Source: a virus
Reading direction: 5' to 3' (one strand)
Virus record (IMG/VR): IMGVR_UViG_3300049181_000066
Location: 1-47,990 of that record
Length of the DNA: 47,990 bases
Shown here: positions 3,705 to 30,571 of the stretch, one piece after another
How the letters are laid out: each line of letters opens with the position of its first letter
How positions within the stretch are numbered: position 1 is the first letter of the stretch
Position numbers and translations under genes: made by a program
The notes under the pieces: generated by a model
Database searches by the model: none
What the model saw: only the letters and a program-made list of their open reading frames with translations
Told to the model about the DNA's origin: nothing

Positions 3705-5084
3705 ATGCCAGACGAAAACAAAACGGGCGAAGGTTTTCCCGACCCTAGCAAAAACAATGAGGAAGTGGCTCAAAAACTGAAAGATCAGGATGTCCACTCT
3801 CAAAACAATGTTGACCTGAAATCTCCTTCTGACGCACTCGACGCTTTGGTCGAAGCTAAGAAGAAAGAAAAGGAAGACGAAGACGCGACTCCGGCACCCG
3901 ATAAAAAAGACGATGCGACACCGCCTGCGAAAACCGAGGCCGAGCTTGCCGCCGAGAAAAAGGCGCAAGACGAGGCTGCGGCCAAGGCTGCGGAAGCCGA
4001 AGTGGCAAAGAAACGCGCCGACGAAATTTTCAAAGACACGCCGACGTTGCCACCGAACGCCAGCCCGAAGTCCACGGAAGCGTTCGCTACGATTAAGATC
4101 AAGGCGGCGCAAGAGATTACGGCCCGTGATGCAAAGATCGAAGAACTGACGAAACGTAACGCGGAATTGGAGAGCACCGTCAAGCAGAGCAAGCCGCTCA
4201 CGCCGGAGACGGAGAAAGAGATCGAGGAACTTCGGAAGTTCCGCGCTCGTCTGGATGTGGAAACTGATCCGCAGTTTAAACAGTTTGACAAGGCGGCTGA
4301 CGCCGCGCGTGAATTCATTTACGCGCAGTTGAAAAAGTCCCCGGTCGTCACCGATGACGTGATTGCTGAGATCAAGAAGCACGGCGGGCCTGACAACGTT
4401 AAGCTCGAAAAGATTTTCGAGGCCGTGAAAGACCCGACGATTCAGCGATTGGTCGAGTCGAAGATTGCCGACATTGAAATGGCCAAGCATAACAAGCAGC
4501 AGGCCATCGCTTCTGCCAAGGAGAACATCAACCAGTATCTTCAGGAGCGGGAGAAGTCCATTGGCGAATCCGCGCAGGCTCACAACAAAGCCACGCAGGG
4601 GGCCTTTGACCGGCTTCTTACGAGTGAGGCGCTTCAGTGGATGAAACCTAAAACCGTTGACGCGAAAGCGGACGAGGCCGCAAAGAAAGCCGCCGATGAG
4701 CACAATGCGTTTGTCAAGGTGACACAAGAGCAACTCACGAGTGCCTTGAACGACGACTCCCCGGAGATGCGTGCGATCCTTCTGGCCGGTATGGCTCAGT
4801 TGCTTCAAACGCAACGGGTTCACGCCGCTGATAAAGCTCGGCTGGCGTCCATCGAGGCTGACCACAAGAAAGTGGTTGACGGGCATCTCGCCACAATCAA
4901 AGAGCTTCAGGGCAAGCTCGACAAGATCAAGGGTGCCAGCGTCTCGCGCCTTGAACAGACTGGCGCGGCCCCCGGTGGAAAACCGCCTTCGACGGTCAAA
5001 GAAGGCGAAATCGATACTCGTCCTACGGTGCAAGCTCTCGACGATATCGCTCGCGACATCCGCGAGAAGCGTAACGCGAGTTAA
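3705..5084 (+). CDS. Capsid scaffolding protein
   Basis: This 459-residue, highly charged protein is dominated by Lys, Glu and Ala, with long predicted helices and coiled coil (about residues 60-110 and 140-200), and a disordered acidic N-terminus. This composition is typical of phage scaffolding proteins, which co-assemble with the coat protein and leave before or during packaging. Its place after the portal fits, although the capsid gene normally next door is displaced 3.4 kb downstream by a glycan cassette. No protease motif is visible, so it is not obviously a protease-scaffold fusion. An 11-bp hairpin begins 20 nt after its stop. Confidence 0.75.
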   Translation: MPDENKTGEGFPDPSKNNEEVAQKLKDQDVHSQNNVDLKSPSDALDALVEAKKKEKEDEDATPAPDKKDDATPPAKTEAELAAEKKAQDEAAAKAAEAEVAKKRADEIFKDTPTLPPNASPKSTEAFATIKIKAAQEITARDAKIEELTKRNAELESTVKQSKPLTPETEKEIEELRKFRARLDVETDPQFKQFDKAADAAREFIYAQLKKSPVVTDDVIAEIKKHGGPDNVKLEKIFEAVKDPTIQRLVESKIADIEMAKHNKQQAIASAKENINQYLQEREKSIGESAQAHNKATQGAFDRLLTSEALQWMKPKTVDAKADEAAKKAADEHNAFVKVTQEQLTSALNDDSPEMRAILLAGMAQLLQTQRVHAADKARLASIEADHKKVVDGHLATIKELQGKLDKIKGASVSRLEQTGAAPGGKPPSTVKEGEIDTRPTVQALDDIARDIREKRNAS

Positions 5085-5103
5085 TGCACAGCGATCACAC
5101 AGA

Positions 5104-5130
5104 GGGAGCGCCGGGTGTTCCGGCGCTCCC
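5104..5130 (+). terminator. Strong hairpin after scaffold gene
   Basis: A perfect 11-bp stem (GGGAGCGCCGG / CCGGCGCTCCC) with a GTGTT loop lies between the scaffold stop and the first glycosyltransferase gene. It has no T-run, so it may be a partial terminator, an mRNA-stabilising or processing structure, or a block on translation of the next gene, whose ATG is at 5132. Confidence 0.6.
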
Positions 5131-5131
5131 A

Positions 5132-5977
5132 ATGTCCACGGTCCGGGTCTTCGGCAAGAAGATCATGATCGTCATGCCTTGGTCTAAGACCATCAACCCA
5201 ATCACTGCTTTTTCGGTCATGCAGTTAATTGACCGACGACGCACCGCGTCGATGTTGAATTATGGGGATGCCTTTATTGCGCACAGTCGTAATAGCTGTG
5301 CTGACGTTTTTCTTCAATCCGACATGGAATGGATGCTCACCGTGGACGATGACATGTTGCTGCCTTATGGCAATGCGCAGTGGTATCGAGCATATACGGG
5401 GTGGAATTGGTATCCTGATCCGTTTGCTTCGTTTAACACTCTCGACCGGCTTATGTCTCACGGGAAGACGATTATTGGTGCGCTTTATTTTGGTCGCCAT
5501 CGTAACGGTCCTCCTGTATACGCGGAGGGTTCAATCGCCTCAGAATCCGCTTACGCTAGGTCCGGCCCCCACGACGTAATCAAAGCTACGAATTGGGTGG
5601 GCACGGGAGCGATGCTGATTCATCGATCTGTTTACGAGGACATCGAGAAAAAGTTCCCAGTGTTGGCGCGTGGTGCCAACGGAAAAGGGGGAAATTGGTT
5701 CACCAGTTCAGAGCATAACTTACTGGATGGGGTGCGACGAGTCCATCAGATGCTCGGTCAGGATGGACCGATGGATGGGACCAAGGCGCTCAAGGCTTAC
5801 GAGATGCTTGAGGGCATCGTGAAGTCTACGGAGAAGAATTCATCCCTTGGTATGGGGGAGGACGTTGTATTTTGTCGTCGGGCGCGCGAGGCCGGTCATC
5901 AGGTCTTCATTGACATGGGGTTGATTGCGGGGCACGTAGGCCATTGTGTTTACGGGCCAAAAAATACAGGTCAGTGA
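5132..5977 (+). CDS. GT-A (family 2-like) glycosyltransferase
   Basis: The protein has 281 residues from ATG 5132, directly after the hairpin. An in-frame start at 5084 would place the hairpin inside the gene and is less likely; ATG 5165 is a possible alternative. A DDD triad at about residues 72-74 (TVDDDMLLP) matches the metal- and sugar-nucleotide-binding DxD of GT-A enzymes. GEDVVFCRRAREAGH near residue 245 resembles the acidic acceptor-side motif of family 2 enzymes, and AGHVGH follows. The enzyme probably transfers a sugar from a nucleotide donor; donor and acceptor are unknown. It is the first of four overlapping genes placed between scaffold and capsid. Virion glycosylation is a plausible role, but modification of host glycan cannot be excluded. 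Confidence 0.8.
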   Translation: MSTVRVFGKKIMIVMPWSKTINPITAFSVMQLIDRRRTASMLNYGDAFIAHSRNSCADVFLQSDMEWMLTVDDDMLLPYGNAQWYRAYTGWNWYPDPFASFNTLDRLMSHGKTIIGALYFGRHRNGPPVYAEGSIASESAYARSGPHDVIKATNWVGTGAMLIHRSVYEDIEKKFPVLARGANGKGGNWFTSSEHNLLDGVRRVHQMLGQDGPMDGTKALKAYEMLEGIVKSTEKNSSLGMGEDVVFCRRAREAGHQVFIDMGLIAGHVGHCVYGPKNTGQ

Positions 5978-6666
5978 TACCGCAACCTCCAGACAGTTTG
6001 CTTGTCGCCGGGCACCTTGAGTTTGGCGACGCACTGGTTTTGAATGGACTCATCCGAGAACTGGCGAAGACGGAGTCGAGGATTGTTTGGCTTACCAGCA
6101 CAAGCTACGTGCGCGCCGTTCGAGAGATGATGCTCGATCTGCCGAATGTGGAAGTCATGGCGGCGCTCAGTTACGACGAAGTCAGACACAGGTGGATGCC
6201 GATTTGGCCGCGCAAGCTGTGCCTCGGTTATTTCAATCCCAACGGGTTTGACGAGTCAAAGTGGGACTCGGAGATGTATCGGCAGGCGGGGATGTCCTTC
6301 GATCTCCGATGGACTAATTTTCGACTGCCTAAAAAACTTTGGGATAAGCCCGGCTACACACGCCGCGAGACCGTCGTCTTTCACGAAGACCCGAGGCGGG
6401 CTTTTTTCGTCAAGCGCAACATGCTGCCACAGAATTTGGAACAAATCCGAATCGATCAACGCCCGTCTATACTTGACTGGCTTCCTGATATCTATGCGGC
6501 CAAGGAGCTTCATTTCATCGACTCAAGTTTTCTGAATCTGGCCGAGTCGCTTTACGCGATGGGATTTTTGCGTGACAAGTCACTGGTATTTCATAAATAT
6601 GCGAAGGCGTATCCCGGCAAGTCGCGGTGGCCGGTGCTTCGCGCTCCATGGATGGTGTTCGAATGA
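5974..6666 (+). CDS. GT-B-like glycosyltransferase (heptosyltransferase-like), short
   Basis: The protein has 230 residues from GTG 5974, which overlaps the previous stop as GTGA. The N-terminus (LLVAGHLEFGDALVLNGLI) resembles the Rossmann half of family 9-like, ADP-heptose:LPS-type transferases, where G-D-x-hydrophobic-x-x-x-x-x-hydrophobic follows the first strand. HFIDSSFLNLAESLYAMG near residue 185 resembles the region in that fold that chooses the donor site (D-S/T-xx-H/N-xx-E). At 230 residues it is shorter than typical family 9 enzymes (about 300-350), so one domain is reduced. It could be a nucleotide-sugar enzyme with an altered role. Context in the glycan cassette is the best support. 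Confidence 0.55.
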   Translation: MIPQPPDSLLVAGHLEFGDALVLNGLIRELAKTESRIVWLTSTSYVRAVREMMLDLPNVEVMAALSYDEVRHRWMPIWPRKLCLGYFNPNGFDESKWDSEMYRQAGMSFDLRWTNFRLPKKLWDKPGYTRRETVVFHEDPRRAFFVKRNMLPQNLEQIRIDQRPSILDWLPDIYAAKELHFIDSSFLNLAESLYAMGFLRDKSLVFHKYAKAYPGKSRWPVLRAPWMVFE

Positions 6667-7646
6667 AATGGCTTCTACTCACAACTGCCCGGCGCACCCC
6701 CGAGACTTTAAACTCGAACGTGGGTGACGAATTTGCGTGCATAGGCACCGAAAATTTGATTAGGGCAGTAGATCGAAATGCTGAGTTTGATCGTTTAAAC
6801 GTTGAGAATCCTAACGAGTGGACTGAACGTCCGTTTGATCGCTGCGTGTTCGCGGGCCGTCCTCTTTGGTGGAGCCAACGACCCGGCACTGATTGCCTCG
6901 ATCATTTTTGGTGGGAGCCGATAATGCGTGGGTGGCCGACCAAGAATCGACGCAACTTTCTGGTGTTAGGTGCCGGTAGTGTTTGCGTCGGGGAGATTCA
7001 TGACACGGTCAAGTATATCCGAGCTATCTACGAAGTGTATAAACGCGCGTGGGCGGTGACGACCAGAAATACGGTGTTGGACCATCCGGGTTTTATCGAC
7101 AGCGTGTGTCCTTCAGCCTTCGCGGTCCCTCCTAGGGTTTTGCAGAAAAAAGCACAAAAAGTTTGTAACCTGATGGTAGACGGCGGACACTTTCCATTAA
7201 GCTCTGACGATGCGGGCGCGTGGGTAGATAAGTTCGATTCGATTGTCAGGGAGTTGCTTCGCAGTGAGTATACCTTCGTAGCCCACACGGAGCCTGAGCG
7301 CGATCTGGCCCTCTCCCTCGGATGGAAGCCCGAGGATGTTCGACTCTTTTCGTCGGCAGAAGAATACCTGTCGTTTTACGCTCGAACGACATGCTACTTT
7401 GGCAACCGGTTGCACGGGGCTGCGGTGTGCGCGGCTTTGGGAATCCCTACGGTCGCGGTCGCGTATGATACGCGGTTGAATTTTGTCCGGCGATTGGGCG
7501 CGCGGGCGCTCCGGCCTTCTCAGATTGATCTCGGGCATCTGAAGTTCTGGCTCCGAGGGGTGCTCTCTCCGACGACGCCACAGGTGGACTTGGCGACGGA
7601 GTATGAGCGCCTCTGTGAACTGCTCTACCGATTTGCTTACGAATGA
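6663..7646 (+). CDS. Polysaccharide pyruvyl transferase family protein
   Basis: The protein has 327 residues from ATG 6663, an ATGA overlap. It carries the N-terminal NVGDEFACIGTENLI (about 18-32) and the C-terminal YFGNRLHGAAVCAALGIPTVAVAYD (about 245-269), which match the WcaK/CsaB-type polysaccharide pyruvyl transferase pattern (NxGDE, then xxRxHGxxxAxxxGxPxxxxxYD). Members transfer a pyruvyl ketal from phosphoenolpyruvate to a sugar. The family also includes enzymes with other donors, so the exact reaction is not certain. In this position it could cap or charge a glycan built by the flanking transferases. A CGTTTAAAC site is at 6793-6800 and an AT-rich Leu codon is used there. Confidence 0.75.
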   Translation: MKWLLLTTARRTPETLNSNVGDEFACIGTENLIRAVDRNAEFDRLNVENPNEWTERPFDRCVFAGRPLWWSQRPGTDCLDHFWWEPIMRGWPTKNRRNFLVLGAGSVCVGEIHDTVKYIRAIYEVYKRAWAVTTRNTVLDHPGFIDSVCPSAFAVPPRVLQKKAQKVCNLMVDGGHFPLSSDDAGAWVDKFDSIVRELLRSEYTFVAHTEPERDLALSLGWKPEDVRLFSSAEEYLSFYARTTCYFGNRLHGAAVCAALGIPTVAVAYDTRLNFVRRLGARALRPSQIDLGHLKFWLRGVLSPTTPQVDLATEYERLCELLYRFAYE

Positions 7647-20717: not shown

Positions 20718-21149
20718 ATGGTGAAAGAACTGACGCCCGACGAGTTTACGGAACGGCTGCTCCCGATTTTTCGAGACGTAGAGCGAAAGTTCTCCTATCC
20801 GGGCGGAACTTTCGATCCCGGACACTTCTTTCCGACTTGGCAAAGCCTCATGAAAGTCAAGGTTGCGCGAACTTGGGAGCAGGGTCCGGGAAATGCCGTG
20901 CTTGGCGCTATCTTTACTCCGAACATGTTCGTCAAAAACCCGAACGCGCTCGTGACCTTCTGGTATAAAAGGGACAACGCCCCAAGCGCGATGCCTTTAC
21001 TGAAGGTCGCGATTAAGGAAGCCCGCAAGGCTGGTTGCAAGTTGCTTTATTCCGCGATCTACCACGGCCTTACCCCCGAACGCGTGAAGGTAGCCCATTA
21101 TCGGTTGGGCTTTGAGGATTCGGAAACAGTTCTCCGCAAAGTTTTATGA
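20718..21149 (+). CDS. GNAT-like acetyltransferase-fold protein
   Basis: The protein has 143 residues. The core VTFWYKRDNAPSAMPLLKVAIKEARKAGCKLLYSAIYHG looks like the central strand and helix of the GNAT fold, with AHYRLGFEDSETVLRKVL at the C-terminus in the position of the final GNAT strand. The canonical acetyl-CoA loop (Q/R-x-x-G-x-A/G) is not clear, so enzymatic activity is doubtful. GNAT-fold proteins are frequent in front of internal virion proteins of podoviruses, where they act as structural or assembly factors. It begins the ejection-protein block and overlaps the next gene by ATGA. Confidence 0.55.
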   Translation: MVKELTPDEFTERLLPIFRDVERKFSYPGGTFDPGHFFPTWQSLMKVKVARTWEQGPGNAVLGAIFTPNMFVKNPNALVTFWYKRDNAPSAMPLLKVAIKEARKAGCKLLYSAIYHGLTPERVKVAHYRLGFEDSETVLRKVL

Positions 21150-24133: not shown

Positions 24134-27100
24134 ATGCCCGATCTTGTTCCGGTCACGCTGACTCCGCAAGAGACAGCGGAGTTTGATCAGCTTCAACCCG
24201 CTCCTGCGGCTCCTGCTGACGCCCCCGCGCCGTTGAATCCTATTCGCGACTTCAGCGCACAGGAGATTTTCGATTTGGCAGTCAACGATACGTCGTTCGA
24301 TATCGCCGCCGAGTTTGCTCGTAACAAAGACCTTTGGGGGGACCAAGCGGTAGTCCAAAAAGCTGCCGACGCCTTTCACATGCTTCGTCAACGTGGCTTT
24401 CAACTTTCTGATTTGCCCAGCCCGAAGAAAATTGTTGGCGCGGTTGCCGACATCGGGAAGGGATTTGTAAAGCAAGCAGCCAATTATGCCAGTGCAGCTT
24501 TATCCCCGCTTGTGGGAGTCGCCGGAGAAATTACCGGCCAAGGTCCGGGCTTCCACGAAGCCGTCGCGCAAGAAGCGCAGCAAAAAGTCGCGGAGAACGT
24601 CGCGGGCTCTGAGGCGTCTGTTTCCGGCATCGCGGACATGGCCAGTCGCGGGGTCGCGAAGATTGGACGCGGTCTTGGACTCTCGAAATCCCTCGACCAG
24701 TTTACTCCTGAAGAAAAAGTAAAAGAGCTTTTCGCTGCTACAGGTCCGATTGAGCAGCAACAACAGATTTCACAAGGTAAGGGTGCGTTCCTTACTCCCG
24801 TGGGCGGCGAAGTCGTCAAAGAGTTGGAAGCCTCGGGGAAAGGTGTTCGGCCTGAAGAAGTGGCCGCGCTTGCCCCGGGCGATCCTCTCGCGTGGTGGAC
24901 GTTCGGTAAAGCTCTCGGTAGTGCAGGCAAGGTTGTTCCGCAGCCGGTAAAGGGTGCCGTTGCCAAAGTCGGGGAAAAGATTGGTGAGGCTGCCACAGTG
25001 GCTACAGGTCGCACGTTACAGGCCCTCGGTGAAGCGACGCGAGTCGGCTCGAAGGTGGTTGGCAAAGCGGCTCCTGTTGTCGGAGCGATCAAAGGCGGCA
25101 TTGAAGCTGGCCCTCTCGGTGTGCTTGCGGGCACGAAGGTTGGCGAAATTACGAAGTCGCTCACGAAGCGGGGCGTCGTCGCTGGAGAAGCTGTTTCCAA
25201 CGTCGGTAAGCAGATGGCCGGGGCTGCGCCCTTGGTGAGTCCTGTTGCCCAGCTTGGTAAGGACATCGTTCAGTCCGCTCCGGGCGTCATCGGTAAAACT
25301 GCCGAGGGGTTAGGTATGGACATTGGGTTAGCTGCGGTCACGTCTGAGACTCCGGCGCAAACCGAAGCCGGAGTCGGTATCGGCGCTGCGCTCGGCGCTG
25401 CTGGCGCTGCCGCAGGCGCGGGCCGAAGGATTTTGTCCGGTCAGTTGATTGCTCCGCGTGCGTGGGGCTCTCAAGTCGCTCGCCCTTCCTCGGGCCAGCA
25501 TCCATCACTCGATGTGATGCACCAGACGGCTTATGACGCTGCGTCCAAAGGGCAGAAAGAACGTTTAAACGCCATTCGTGAATTTGTAAGAGGGGCCGCG
25601 CCGGATACCGACGTATTCCTCGCGAGTGACCCGCTCTCGGTCGAGCGCGCCTTAACTGACGCGGGTGTCTCCCCCGAGCAGGCTCAAACGTTTTCGCGTC
25701 AGGAAGGGTTTTTCACTACCTCCTTGCCGGGCAGAGACGGCCAACCGAAGCGCGTCATCGTGCTGCGTGATGCTGATACGGCTCCGCATGAGTCTTTTCA
25801 TGCTTTTCAAGATGTGATTGGCGAACAGGCGAATCTTGCCATCGACCAGATCATGAAAGACGCATATGCAGACCGTTGGGAAGCCGAAGGGCAGCGTTAC
25901 GCGGAGCGTCTCACCGGCCAGCCGGTTGAAAATTGGCGCGATGCGGTTTTGTCTTCGTCTGGTTGGGGTCACGCCAATGCGTTAGAAAAGGTTTATCGTG
26001 ACGTGGCGAACCGTCTACGCGCCGAGCAAGGTGCTGAACCGATACCCGCCGATGTCGAGACGCTTGTGCGTGCCGAATGGACCGGTGGTCCTGAATCATG
26101 GCGCGAAATTCTCACGCCCGAGGAACAAACTCAAATCGCCGACCGATACATCGCTCGTGAGTTGGCCGCTGAAAATTTTGATGCCGTCTTCAAAAATCTT
26201 GGCGGCGCGTTGCAGGAACAATCCGGCGTGCTGCCGAAGATGGCTCGTATTGTTGGACAGGTGGTATCGGCTTTCGGCGGCGAGCCTCTCGCTGGCCGGG
26301 TCTCTGAATTTGGTCAGGTGCCGCTCCGTGCCGATGCTGTGGAAGCGGTGAAGACGGCAGTCCGGGATCGACGGCCTGAAGTTTCAGTTCCCCCGTCCCC
26401 TGCTACTACTCCCCGTAGTCCGGCTGCGCCGCGCACGCCCCCGTCAACCCCCGAGGGTGCTGCCGACGAAGCTCGCGCCATCGCTGAGTCCGCCCCGGAT
26501 GCTCCGGTGGCCGGGGGCACTCGTTCCCCGAAAGAATTGCTCGGTGAAGTAGCGCAGGCGATTGCCTCACGACAGGGGCTCAAGATCAATTATCTCTCGG
26601 CTCCCGGCGAGCCTGCGGCTGCGGTGTCGCAGAATCGCGCGGCTCGCCGCGAAGTGATCGAAGCTTTCCGCACCATGCCCGCCAGCGCCCGCGCCCTGTG
26701 GGAGAAGAATTTCTTCCCGGACCGGGTCATCAAGCTGAAGGACGACAAGTATCAAGTCCTCGGGTGGGCTCCTGAAGTGTTTGCGGCGAACGCGCACCGG
26801 ATGGCGAAGGCCCTCAAAGGCAACGAAACTCTCTCCCCGTATGAAATCAGTGGCGACTCATTCTCCGAGAAAGGCTGGCGCGATCTGTTCGCTGACGTTG
26901 AAACGTTTTCGCGCAATCAGATCGCAGGCCAAACCGGCGCTGGCGATCCTCTCGTCGTCCCTAAGAATATCAAAGATGCCGGATTTTTCGCTCCCGCATC
27001 GCGTGCCCGCGACGCTGCTCCGCTGGATCAACGGAAAGCGGATTTCATCAACATCCTTTTTGGTTACAAGCTTCCAGAGACGCCTCGCATCCAGAAAGGC

Positions 27101-30100
27101 AAGCTCCCGCTGAACATCGCCGGTCAGGATGTAAGCACGGCCACGAAGCCGGGCCGTATCCGTGTGCCGGTTGAGCCGAAAGGCAAGTTCACTGGCGAGG
27201 AAGCCGAACGTCAGAACATCGAGGGTCGCGAAATTCTTGAAGTCAATCCGTTGCGTAATGAACTTCAGGCTGCACTTGGCGACAAATATCCTTCGCTAAT
27301 CGAGGCTCAGCAAAGGTTGAATCTTGAGAGCATCAAAGAAGTTCAAGTCGCGCCGGAGCAGCCGGAATTCCGCGCCAACACCTTGACTCTCACTGCTGGC
27401 TTCCAGCCGCAGACTGCCGCAGGGCGCAAGCTCGAACAGGATGGCTATGAATACCGTCTCGAAGGCGGGGAAGGCAACCGGCGCATCGCTCTCATCAAAG
27501 ACGGCCAAGAGGTTGCTTTCATCGAAGCCATCGGGGACCAGAAAGACCCGAAGAAAGCGCACATCGATATGGTGTGGGTCAACCCCGACTTGCGCGGCAA
27601 GGGCATCGGCGAGGCGCTTAATCGCGAAGCTGGCGCATGGCTGAAGTCGGACGGTTTTTCGTCGGTCGAAGCGACTGTGGTGAATCCCGTTGAGGGAAAG
27701 ATCATCGACAAGGTTTTCCCCGGCACGAAATTCGAACCCATCAAACAAGGTGGAGAAGTTCTTCCATCCGTCAAAAGCAAATCTCCGATTTCGGCGGCGT
27801 CGCAGTTTCAACCGGCTGCCGACAGGGCGCGCGAGTTGGTTACTATGGACGACGCCACGTGGAAGAAAGCCACGGAGTATAAAGGAAAGTTCGGCGCAGG
27901 ATTTACCGGGTGGGCTTATGAGTTGGGGGCTTCCGTCAAGGACGTAGCGGACCTTCAGGCTCTCCGGGAGACGTATAGCACGCTTCAAGAAGCGGGACAG
28001 GCGGCGATGAAATCCGGGGATATGATGGGGGCACTGAACCTGATCTATAGGGGCCAAGCTGCACGTGAAGCGTATGAGGCTGCCACGGGTGAGACTCTCG
28101 ATGGCAAGCAACCGGCCACGGTGCCGTTCATGCGCAAGCACATGGACCCGAATTACGAACCGCCCATGCCGGGGGATACGTTTAAACAGTGGGAAGCGGA
28201 GCAGAAGAAAGGTCTTGACTCTGGCGCGGAATCTGCTATACTGGAGCCTGAAATGAGCACTCAGGCACAGCCTAAAAGAAACGAAGAAGTAACGCGCATT
28301 GCGGACGAATACGCTCGCAAAGCGGGAGTAAATTACCGCGCTCCGGGCAATGTTCAGCCGGTCCCCGAAGAAACCGCGCAGCGCGTGGCCGATTGGTATG
28401 AGTCCGCAAAGCATTCTCCGAATGACCCGGACGTGAAAGCTTCCTACGATGCTCTCGTCAAAGAGACTATCGAGCAATACGAATCCATCAAAGACGCTGG
28501 CTATACTATTGAGCCTTACGCGGGAGAGGGTGAGCCCTACAAGAACAGCGCCGAGATGATCAAGGATGTCTCCGAGAACAAGCATCTGTTCTTCCTGCCG
28601 ACCAAAGGTAACTTCTCCGGCGACGAGAACAACCACATGCTCAAACCCTCGGGGGTTGATGATCTGCTGGTGAACGATATCTTCCGCGCCGTGCATGATT
28701 TTTTCGGACACGCCAAAGAGGGTCTTCAGTTCGGACCGAAGGGCGAATTCAACGCATGGCGCGAACACTCTGCAATGTATACCGATGAGGCGCAAGGGGC
28801 GCTCGCGGCTGAGACGCTGGCTCAGAATTTTTGGGTGAACTTCGGCAAGCAGGTTCGCGGCAAGGAAGTCGCGCTGAAAGATCGCCCGTTCGCCGAGCAA
28901 AAGAACGTCTTCGTTCCTGAGAACTTCGTCAACGAATTGCGTGGGCAAGCCCAGCCGAAGAAAAAGCAGAAAGACCCCTACAAGTTCCCGAAGGCGTCGA
29001 GCGAAGGCATCCGCAAGGCTTGGATTCTCCCCAATGGCGAGGTTGCTCAGTTGGGCGGAACGTGGCACCACGAGTGGCTCGCCGAGAACCCGGACGTGAC
29101 CAAAAAATATGGTCTGGTCATTCCGAAGTTCACCGGCAATGACTCGGAGAACGTCCGTGAGGAAGCGATGAAGAAAGGCTTCATCCGCGTGAACAACACG
29201 ACGCGCAACGGCACGCTGATCATCGAGGCGCGCGCCAAAGACTGGCGCAAGGCGCGCTCTGCGATGGAACAGATGGTCGAGTCCAACATCGACGACTTCG
29301 ACAACGTTACTGTCCATCTTTTCGACGACAAGATTTCGAAAGTGGTGGACTCGGAGACCAAACAGATTTTCGTTTACGACACCGATCAGGAGAAGCTCGA
29401 AAATCTTCCTTTCTCGGGCCGTGAACCCCGTGGCACTGGCGCGCTTAGCGAATTCAAAGCGGCGGCTCAACCTCCGCGCGCAGACGACGCCGATCTTTTT
29501 GGGAATCGCAAGGCTGTCACTGGCCGACAGGTCAATGAGATGACGCGCGACGAATTGAAGCGGCACTTTCCCGAGGCGATTGTTCCGAAGGACCGCGCCG
29601 AATCTATCCCGTCTGAGATCACGGCATCGCCGCTCTACAAGCAAGCTGGCAGCGAAAGCAAAGCAGTGGACGCGTTCGCGAGCAAATTGGTGGAGTTTGC
29701 CAAAGAGAATCAGGACACCCCCGAGTTCAAAGCCGGACGCAAATGGTATTCTGAATTCGTCCCCCGGTTGAAGAAAGAGTTTGGCAAGGATGCGCAAACC
29801 ATGGCTGAGCTTTTGGCCGCGACGAGCCCACAGACTAACGTCGAAACGAATTTCGCTTACGCGTTGGACGCGCTGGAATCCCTGAAGGCCGGTAGATTCG
29901 ACAAGATTATCAGTAAGTTCGAGCAAGGGCTGGAGATGATCGAGGACAACACGTGGCTTGCGTGGTATAACCGGCACGCCAAAGATGTTCCTAACGCCCC
30001 GGCTGAGCCGACCCCTGCCGCGTTCCTCGCGCACTGGATTGAGACGCACAATCTCAAACCGCGTCAGAGTAACGGCAAGCTTTACGGCCAACATTCGCTG

Positions 30101-30571
30101 CCGGTGCTTCAGGTTTTCGCCCGGCGCTGGCTGTCTGACGCACGGGGTCCGAAGACCCTCAACTTCGTGCAGAACCTTTTGGGCACTGGCCACGAAGCCA
30201 CGATTGACTTGTGGGCTGACCGGACGATGCGGCGACTTGGCTACGCGGATTCGGTCGAACGCTGGCGCATTCTCCCGCAGAACATTGCGGGTGTCAGCGA
30301 GGCAGATTTTACGTTCGCCCAAAAGGCGTTTCGCCGTGCCGCCGAGCAGATGAAGATGAAACCCGACGACCTACAGGGTGCGCTTTGGTTCGCTGAGAAG
30401 CAACTGTGGGCCAATAACGGGTGGTCGCGCCTTGACCTAGGGGATTTTCGTAGGGAGATCGAGAAGACTCCCCTACTCCGGGCCGGGGTAAAACACCGGC
30501 TTGAAAAGACCAAAGCCCGTGGTAAAGTGAAACCGGCACAGGAACTTGAACTACTGGTGGAGCCACGATGA
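24134..30571 (+). CDS. Polyvalent ejection protein with multiple enzymatic-type domains
   Basis: The protein has 2145 residues. The first 450 are Ala/Gly-rich helical segments with membrane-active character. Then come: a zincin-like HESFH at 552-556 in a short metallopeptidase-like domain; a Pro/Ala linker near 750-790; a GNAT domain (VNPDLRGKGIG, Arg about 1154); a domain with RAVHDFFGHAKEGLQFGPKGE near 1517-1537; a domain near 1600-1780 beginning IRKAWILPNGEVAQLGGTWHHEWL; and a C-terminal domain (TSPQTNVETN near 1897, then NLLGTGHEATIDLWADRTMRR near 2016) of a kind I associate with polyvalent proteins. Such proteins, described in phages and conjugative elements, are delivered with DNA and are proposed to counter host defences. 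Each domain call is by eye; order, size and position after other ejection proteins support the overall assignment. It is too short for an N4-type virion RNA polymerase and I see no polymerase motifs. It contains two CGTTTAAAC sites. Confidence 0.7.
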   Translation: MPDLVPVTLTPQETAEFDQLQPAPAAPADAPAPLNPIRDFSAQEIFDLAVNDTSFDIAAEFARNKDLWGDQAVVQKAADAFHMLRQRGFQLSDLPSPKKIVGAVADIGKGFVKQAANYASAALSPLVGVAGEITGQGPGFHEAVAQEAQQKVAENVAGSEASVSGIADMASRGVAKIGRGLGLSKSLDQFTPEEKVKELFAATGPIEQQQQISQGKGAFLTPVGGEVVKELEASGKGVRPEEVAALAPGDPLAWWTFGKALGSAGKVVPQPVKGAVAKVGEKIGEAATVATGRTLQALGEATRVGSKVVGKAAPVVGAIKGGIEAGPLGVLAGTKVGEITKSLTKRGVVAGEAVSNVGKQMAGAAPLVSPVAQLGKDIVQSAPGVIGKTAEGLGMDIGLAAVTSETPAQTEAGVGIGAALGAAGAAAGAGRRILSGQLIAPRAWGSQVARPSSGQHPSLDVMHQTAYDAASKGQKERLNAIREFVRGAAPDTDVFLASDPLSVERALTDAGVSPEQAQTFSRQEGFFTTSLPGRDGQPKRVIVLRDADTAPHESFHAFQDVIGEQANLAIDQIMKDAYADRWEAEGQRYAERLTGQPVENWRDAVLSSSGWGHANALEKVYRDVANRLRAEQGAEPIPADVETLVRAEWTGGPESWREILTPEEQTQIADRYIARELAAENFDAVFKNLGGALQEQSGVLPKMARIVGQVVSAFGGEPLAGRVSEFGQVPLRADAVEAVKTAVRDRRPEVSVPPSPATTPRSPAAPRTPPSTPEGAADEARAIAESAPDAPVAGGTRSPKELLGEVAQAIASRQGLKINYLSAPGEPAAAVSQNRAARREVIEAFRTMPASARALWEKNFFPDRVIKLKDDKYQVLGWAPEVFAANAHRMAKALKGNETLSPYEISGDSFSEKGWRDLFADVETFSRNQIAGQTGAGDPLVVPKNIKDAGFFAPASRARDAAPLDQRKADFINILFGYKLPETPRIQKGKLPLNIAGQDVSTATKPGRIRVPVEPKGKFTGEEAERQNIEGREILEVNPLRNELQAALGDKYPSLIEAQQRLNLESIKEVQVAPEQPEFRANTLTLTAGFQPQTAAGRKLEQDGYEYRLEGGEGNRRIALIKDGQEVAFIEAIGDQKDPKKAHIDMVWVNPDLRGKGIGEALNREAGAWLKSDGFSSVEATVVNPVEGKIIDKVFPGTKFEPIKQGGEVLPSVKSKSPISAASQFQPAADRARELVTMDDATWKKATEYKGKFGAGFTGWAYELGASVKDVADLQALRETYSTLQEAGQAAMKSGDMMGALNLIYRGQAAREAYEAATGETLDGKQPATVPFMRKHMDPNYEPPMPGDTFKQWEAEQKKGLDSGAESAILEPEMSTQAQPKRNEEVTRIADEYARKAGVNYRAPGNVQPVPEETAQRVADWYESAKHSPNDPDVKASYDALVKETIEQYESIKDAGYTIEPYAGEGEPYKNSAEMIKDVSENKHLFFLPTKGNFSGDENNHMLKPSGVDDLLVNDIFRAVHDFFGHAKEGLQFGPKGEFNAWREHSAMYTDEAQGALAAETLAQNFWVNFGKQVRGKEVALKDRPFAEQKNVFVPENFVNELRGQAQPKKKQKDPYKFPKASSEGIRKAWILPNGEVAQLGGTWHHEWLAENPDVTKKYGLVIPKFTGNDSENVREEAMKKGFIRVNNTTRNGTLIIEARAKDWRKARSAMEQMVESNIDDFDNVTVHLFDDKISKVVDSETKQIFVYDTDQEKLENLPFSGREPRGTGALSEFKAAAQPPRADDADLFGNRKAVTGRQVNEMTRDELKRHFPEAIVPKDRAESIPSEITASPLYKQAGSESKAVDAFASKLVEFAKENQDTPEFKAGRKWYSEFVPRLKKEFGKDAQTMAELLAATSPQTNVETNFAYALDALESLKAGRFDKIISKFEQGLEMIEDNTWLAWYNRHAKDVPNAPAEPTPAAFLAHWIETHNLKPRQSNGKLYGQHSLPVLQVFARRWLSDARGPKTLNFVQNLLGTGHEATIDLWADRTMRRLGYADSVERWRILPQNIAGVSEADFTFAQKAFRRAAEQMKMKPDDLQGALWFAEKQLWANNGWSRLDLGDFRREIEKTPLLRAGVKHRLEKTKARGKVKPAQELELLVEPR

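Follow-up and report, generated by a model that had tools for sequence, protein, structure and literature searches.

Among the known proteins closest to the one considered here are the polyvalent proteins of phages such as P1 and N4 (Iyer et al. 2017, PMC5512222). In that study, zincin metallopeptidases (MPTases) were proposed to divide such proteins into their individual functional units, and P1 DdrB was described as processed, while N4 vRNAP was not. Here, we deal with a 2145-residue protein encoded at 24134..30571 on the + strand of a virus contig of 47,990 bases (IMGVR_UViG_3300049181_000066); the whole contig is referred to as the window, and all features lie on its + strand unless otherwise noted. 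The open reading frame (ORF) is real, and its product qualifies as a phage polyvalent protein as defined by Iyer et al. It is not a chance frame, as full-length homologues with 49-53% identity were found in other virus contigs in IMG/VR scans, and the wider clan in the same database reaches about 26% identity within the constant region of the protein. The most informative feature of this protein is the modular shuffling of its domains together with a lineage-specific motif at the module junctions. On balance, and with modest confidence, we view it as a polyvalent effector of the virion type with the organisation of a polyprotein, whose own zincin most likely cleaves at the junction motifs (termed tags).

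Alignment of the relatives revealed a constant front of around 1090 residues that stops exactly at the sequence TL(T/S)AGFQP. The middle region behind it consists of rearranged modules and not merely of diverged sequence, and the C-terminal domain is again constant. In the window protein, the order is a GNAT module (residues 1093-1224; 27410..27805), a helical module with no assigned function (WKKATEYKG...; residues 1228-1376; 27815..28261), the VHDFFGH (VHD) module (residues 1381-1604; 28274..28945), the KAWILP module, also with no assigned function (residues 1609-1767; 28958..29434), and the C-terminal DUF7178 domain (residues 1790-2145; 29501..30568). The helical and KAWILP modules are found at other positions in the relatives, which are given here by their L numbers, and the GNAT module there follows FLP, FQP or FSP. 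For example, KAWILP precedes VHDFFGH and GNAT is absent in L005, L001 is without VHDFFGH, and L012 has the order helical module, GNAT, VHDFFGH and KAWILP, among additional modules. Duplicated modules within one chain were also seen, with two helical modules in L126 and two GNAT modules in L135.

The five junctions of the window protein each carry a short tag. The first is (AG)F-Q-P (residues 1090-1092; 27401..27409), which is orthologous throughout the clan, where the residue x between Phe and Pro is Q, L, K, R, M or A. The second is QFQP, with F-Q-P at residues 1225-1227 (27806..27814), and the third and fourth are both QAQP (residues 1377-1380; 28262..28273, and residues 1605-1608; 28946..28957), with AAQP at the fifth (residues 1777-1780; 29462..29473). 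An AlphaFold2 model of residues 1366-2145 (780 residues) had a mean predicted local distance difference test score (pLDDT) of 89.9, and the sole internal stretches below 50 were the disordered linkers of the fourth and fifth junctions, namely model residues 241-247 (1606-1612 of the protein) and 403-425 (1768-1790). At the beginning of the model, residues 1-12, at the third junction, were also below 50.

The module junctions of the relatives likewise carry an aromatic-x-Pro tag, in which x varies by lineage and recurs at non-orthologous junctions of one and the same protein. L012 has [FY]LP ten times, L116 has FQP nine times, L135 has FLP eight times and L014 has FKP seven times (one of these before the first junction); L252 follows with [FY]SP seven times and L246 with FEP six times, and five copies each are found of [FY]RP in L018, of FMP in both L242 and L235, and of FAP in L119. 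At the first junction, Gly and Pro are nearly invariant in 27 relatives, whereas Phe and Pro are separated by a variable residue. Later sites matched the x of the first junction 86 times in 25 proteins, where 20,000 permutations gave 33.0 on average and never more than 70, and 110 such matches were counted in 29 non-redundant proteins where 8.7 were expected from composition. To allow for the non-independence of related proteins, adjacent lineages in the tree with different x residues were compared with each other. A lineage's own x outnumbered that of its partner in all 10 tips of five close pairs, and in 13 of the 14 tips, with one tie, when two looser pairs were added to give seven. The sharpest pair is L014, with five later sites having K and none having Q, and L116, with eight later sites having Q and two having K.

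The tags also lie where the modules end. Of the 93 junction sites, 76 are within 12 residues of the end of a homology segment; 43.5 were expected, and the highest count in 2000 draws was 58. The distance from tag to module was 142-173 residues for VHD and 65-69 for GNAT in four of five cases (81 in L126), and a tag is present 23-26 residues upstream of KAWILP in 13 of 19 copies. That homology breaks at the junctions of plainly shuffled modules is also what would be seen if the tags were inert scars, left by modules swapped with their linkers among close relatives or by recombination at a shared DNA sequence. Scars would not readily account for homologous modules bearing the tag of their host protein, such as the VHD module that follows QAQP, FQP, FLP, FRP, FMP and so on, nor for neighbouring lineages that differ in x and show their own x at all or most sites. 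In addition, the tags of one gene are written in freely varying codons, and therefore selection is on the peptide and not on a DNA recombination site; the latter was rejected as the origin of the tags, and inert scars are on the whole a highly improbable explanation.

Two further observations concern the distribution of tags. Both L040 and L099 have an extra segment beyond the usual last domain, again behind a tag of their own (FLP and QSQP, respectively). Outside the clan, other polyvalent proteins carry comparable recurrent tags, with YSPA/FSPA in L017, [FY]SP in L033 and FSRR in L086, which suggests that a junction code is possibly general.

The candidate for a protease that reads the tags resides in the constant front. 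This begins with an Ala/Gly-rich region (residues 1-440; 24134..25453), in which Ala and Gly make up 33% of residues 90-440, against 19% elsewhere in the protein. The original prediction, made from the DNA alone, had proposed a membrane-active N-terminus here, and this part of it is unsupported because no clear transmembrane segment was found, with no 19-residue window reaching a hydropathy of 1.4 and the relatives being borderline. The peptidase that it had recognised by the motif HESFH (residues 552-556; 25787..25801) fared better. The surrounding domain (residues ~446-752; 25469..26389) has a zincin-like core in the secondary structure of the model, made of a three-stranded sheet, an N-terminal helix and two C-terminal helices, and H552, H556, E676 and E680 are invariant across 27 relatives, giving HExxH with a downstream Glu in the form of ExxxE. 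Its structural match to lethal factor (1pwp) was moderate, with Z 6.2, a root-mean-square deviation of 5.4 and 181 residues aligned. Position 553 is Asp, making the motif HDxxH, in the FLP lineages and L018 (i.e., L012, L018, L040, L129-L131, L133 and L135), in which both His residues and the downstream Glu are kept.

The constant front, composed of the Ala/Gly segment, the lethal-factor-like zincin and a WYL-like domain, is followed by independent modules in a series that changes between relatives, and we propose that the disordered linkers between them present the lineage-specific tag (aromatic-x-Pro, here F-Q-P or Q-A-Q-P) to the protein's own zincin. Cutting in cis would then split the chain into separate working units, either in the prohead or after entry. 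The tags fit processing sites because they mark most of the module boundaries, lie in disordered linkers, are selected at the level of the peptide, are confined to the zincin protein among the genes tested and change in concert, and concerted change is what would be expected if a protease changes its specificity. Confinement was assessed in the flanking genes of 18 relatives, where the lineage tag occurred 9 times with about 11 expected; the idea of a tag common to other virion proteins was thus rejected for the genes tested. A more tentative extension is that phage polyvalent proteins are true polyproteins with a lineage-specific cleavage code, in which the in-chain zincin and all of the junction tags change specificity together, such that free exchange of effector cassettes would be limited to phages that share a tag.

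Several points weigh against this reading. The main objection is that the tags persist in the HDxxH lineages, given that HDxxH in place of HExxH would normally weaken catalysis. The window protein taken alone is only suggestive, with 7 Gln-Pro (QP) dipeptides against 1.8 expected in its 711-residue middle and 5 against 4.3 expected in the N-terminal part. Several KAWILP copies are without a tag within 45 residues, and mixed x residues are found in L123, L019 and L127. Phage N4 vRNAP, which likewise has an MPTase, is packaged uncleaved according to Iyer et al. 2017 (PMC5512222).

The retention of tags with HDxxH therefore leaves room for a protease acting in trans or for a docking function. In the first case, a capsid-maturation or host protease would cut at the tags and the zincin itself would be an effector, and a short A-x-E motif does direct the SPN3US prohead protease to several sites in the ejection proteins of that phage (PMC10052503). 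However, the flanking genes that were tested are not enriched in the tag, no prohead protease was recognised in the scanned parts of the window, and we consider cutting in trans to be unlikely. In the second case, the tags would remain uncut and act, for example, as sites through which the individual modules are loaded onto a portal, scaffold or chaperone. Short motifs in disordered linkers that are recurrent, confined to the polyvalent protein and varying in concert by lineage would be equally in place there, and a co-varying partner would give the same pattern, yet a single site per chain should suffice for encapsidation and most module boundaries are tagged; docking is in our view quite unlikely. 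We retain processing by the in-chain zincin, with a protein that would be present in the virion, be injected and have modules acting on the host. That the protein enters together with the DNA and counters host defences, both points of the original prediction, is suggested by the position of the gene and by its family.

Upstream of the first junction and adjoining it, the constant front ends in a domain (residues ~786-1086; 26489..27391) that is predicted to be WYL-like, with large insertions. The fold matches in the VIA comparison were PafBC (Z 9.6), BrxR (8.8) and CapW (5.1), as is expected of the WYL (Sm-like) fold. In hhalign, its profile scored 25.2 with WYL and 14-17 with controls, WYL being the best of four families at a probability of only 2.5%, and the Pfam WYL profile gave no match to the protein at E 10. 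The likeness to the WYL domains of PafBC, BrxR and CapW extends over 80-90 residues of the fold and a similar N-terminal strand motif, whereas the large insertions set the window protein apart, no DNA-binding winged helix was seen in it and the Pfam profile is silent.

At the other end of the protein, TSPQT (residues 1897-1901) and TIDLWADR (residues 2023-2030), which had been taken to mark a C-terminal domain, were indeed located within a single one. Pfam assigned it to DUF7178 (E 2.2e-11, 44.5 bits with a gathering score of 27), and phrog_3842 covers the C-terminus in PHROGs. Ahead of any fold search, the pattern KTxNxxxN...18...IDxW pointed to an HhH-GPD glycosylase. The VIA comparison then matched the domain to MjOgg of M. 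jannaschii (Z 10.5) and TmOgg of T. maritima (9.9), which are 8-oxoguanine glycosylases, as well as to EndoIII (7.4) and AGOG (6.7). The top 11 rows, from Z 10.5 to 5.1, are all glycosylases except for one unnamed protein (1xg7), with the next row at 4.7. K2007 and D2025 are invariant, their spacing of 18 is that of the catalytic Lys/Asp pair in EndoIII, and they fall on the Lys and Asp of Nth in a weak, low-probability hhalign alignment. Foldseek alone gave no significant match with either model, a whole-protein phmmer search against PDB found nothing, and profiles of the C-terminal domain and of VHD returned only TPR or designed-protein noise from PDB sequences. The DUF7178 domain is thus predicted to adopt a fold like that of HhH-GPD DNA glycosylases (core residues 1847-2105). 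The Ogg2/AGOG and EndoIII enzymes resemble it in fold and in the Lys/Asp pair, but there is almost no overall sequence similarity to them, and the domain described here has added flanking helices and is fused to a polyvalent protein.

The VHDFFGH domain noted in the original prediction (motif at residues 1520-1526) corresponds to phrog_3170 (E 1.5e-13), and the enzyme-like residues H1521, D1522, H1526 and E1560 occupy columns that are invariant in 55 sequences. It occurs at no fewer than 582 viral and at least 114 genomic loci. With hhalign, it paired best with phenylalanine hydroxylases (34.9, compared to 12-15 for controls, at a probability of 37%), placing HDFFGH on HDVFGH, and H1521, H1526 and E1560 match the HxxxxH...Glu iron site of Biopterin_H at the motif level only. 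Aromatic amino acid hydroxylases ranked 37 and 41 in Foldseek (E 3.6-3.8), and the VIA comparison barely covered the VHD part. VHDFFGH therefore bears a weak likeness to the iron site of these hydroxylases, which is an unproved lead. In Mycobacterium phage Tonenili, a standalone VHDFFGH protein is encoded between the head fibre and head decoration genes (L010:2689-3990), a position that is in line with a virion role for the module. The domain is also present in many bacterial genomes (L138-L217), particularly of Microbacterium, Micromonospora and Streptomyces, either in prophages or as host genes.

The GNAT module, seen beforehand by its RGKGIG motif (residues 1154-1159), matched Pfam Acetyltransf_1 at E 7.3e-9 and 36.4 bits, above the cut-off of 20.7. 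For KAWILP, misaligned fragments of which were excluded from the modelling alignment, the VIA fold search gave only gelsolin/ADF-like and other proteins at Z <5, taken as noise.

Among the large genes of a + strand block, the polyvalent gene comes last, and this block includes a collagen-like tail-fibre gene and one weak virion-protein match. The opposite strand of the window carries the replication genes, with a DNA polymerase, exonucleases and a helicase among its products, and also a sigma-factor-like gene. The setting is therefore the late, structural one expected of polyvalent proteins (Iyer et al. 2017), on structural assignments that are sparse overall, and the large size and biochemically disparate domains in one chain are likewise those of the class. 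All of the motifs named in the original prediction were located in the ORF and are conserved or invariant in relatives, and its interpretation stands for the polyvalent class, the zincin, GNAT, VHDFFGH and the C-terminal domain, with the membrane-active N-terminus left unsupported. The structural matches that it called for were obtained at moderate strength for the peptidase and at the Pfam level for GNAT, but it had overlooked the shuffling, the junction motif and the WYL-like and glycosylase-like folds. Also in the + strand block are glycosyltransferase-like and polysaccharide pyruvyl transferase-like genes (5084-7646) and a small ORF (20718-21149) that weakly matches an acetyltransferase (phrog_1249, E 0.0025). 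An antisense frame of 1008 residues at 27296-30322 on the - strand, opposite the polyvalent gene, is probably a by-product of codon bias.

The protein thus belongs to a known class. Like the polyvalent proteins of the P1 DdrB and N4 vRNAP type, as far as the consulted part of Iyer et al. 2017 (PMC5512222) describes them, it is a very large phage protein that mixes a zincin MPTase, a GNAT domain and uncharacterised domains; no recurring junction motif, DNA glycosylase or WYL domain was found in that part. No junction or linker motif in polyvalent proteins was found in the open-access literature searched, which is not proof of its absence elsewhere, and that literature describes for this class neither a junction code specific to lineages nor a DUF7178 of glycosylase type nor a WYL-like domain. 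How polyvalent proteins become separate effectors has since 2017 been the subject of a proposal that lacked sites, for which the tag would supply exact and testable cut sites. It also allows modules to be delimited automatically in many phages and provides a natural experiment in the co-evolution of a protease and its substrate. The glycosylase-like and WYL-like assignments offer testable functions, the DUF concerned being found in many phages: an enzyme for DNA lesions or modified bases, and a ligand sensor as in BREX and CBASS regulators, are suggested, perhaps delivered early against the host. A further parallel is to the ejection proteins of giant phages that are processed by a prohead protease, such as SPN3US gp245 (A-x-E, PMC10052503), in which short protease motifs are also repeated. 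In that system, a separate capsid protease removes propeptides, whereas the tags described here separate functional modules and the candidate protease belongs to the same chain.

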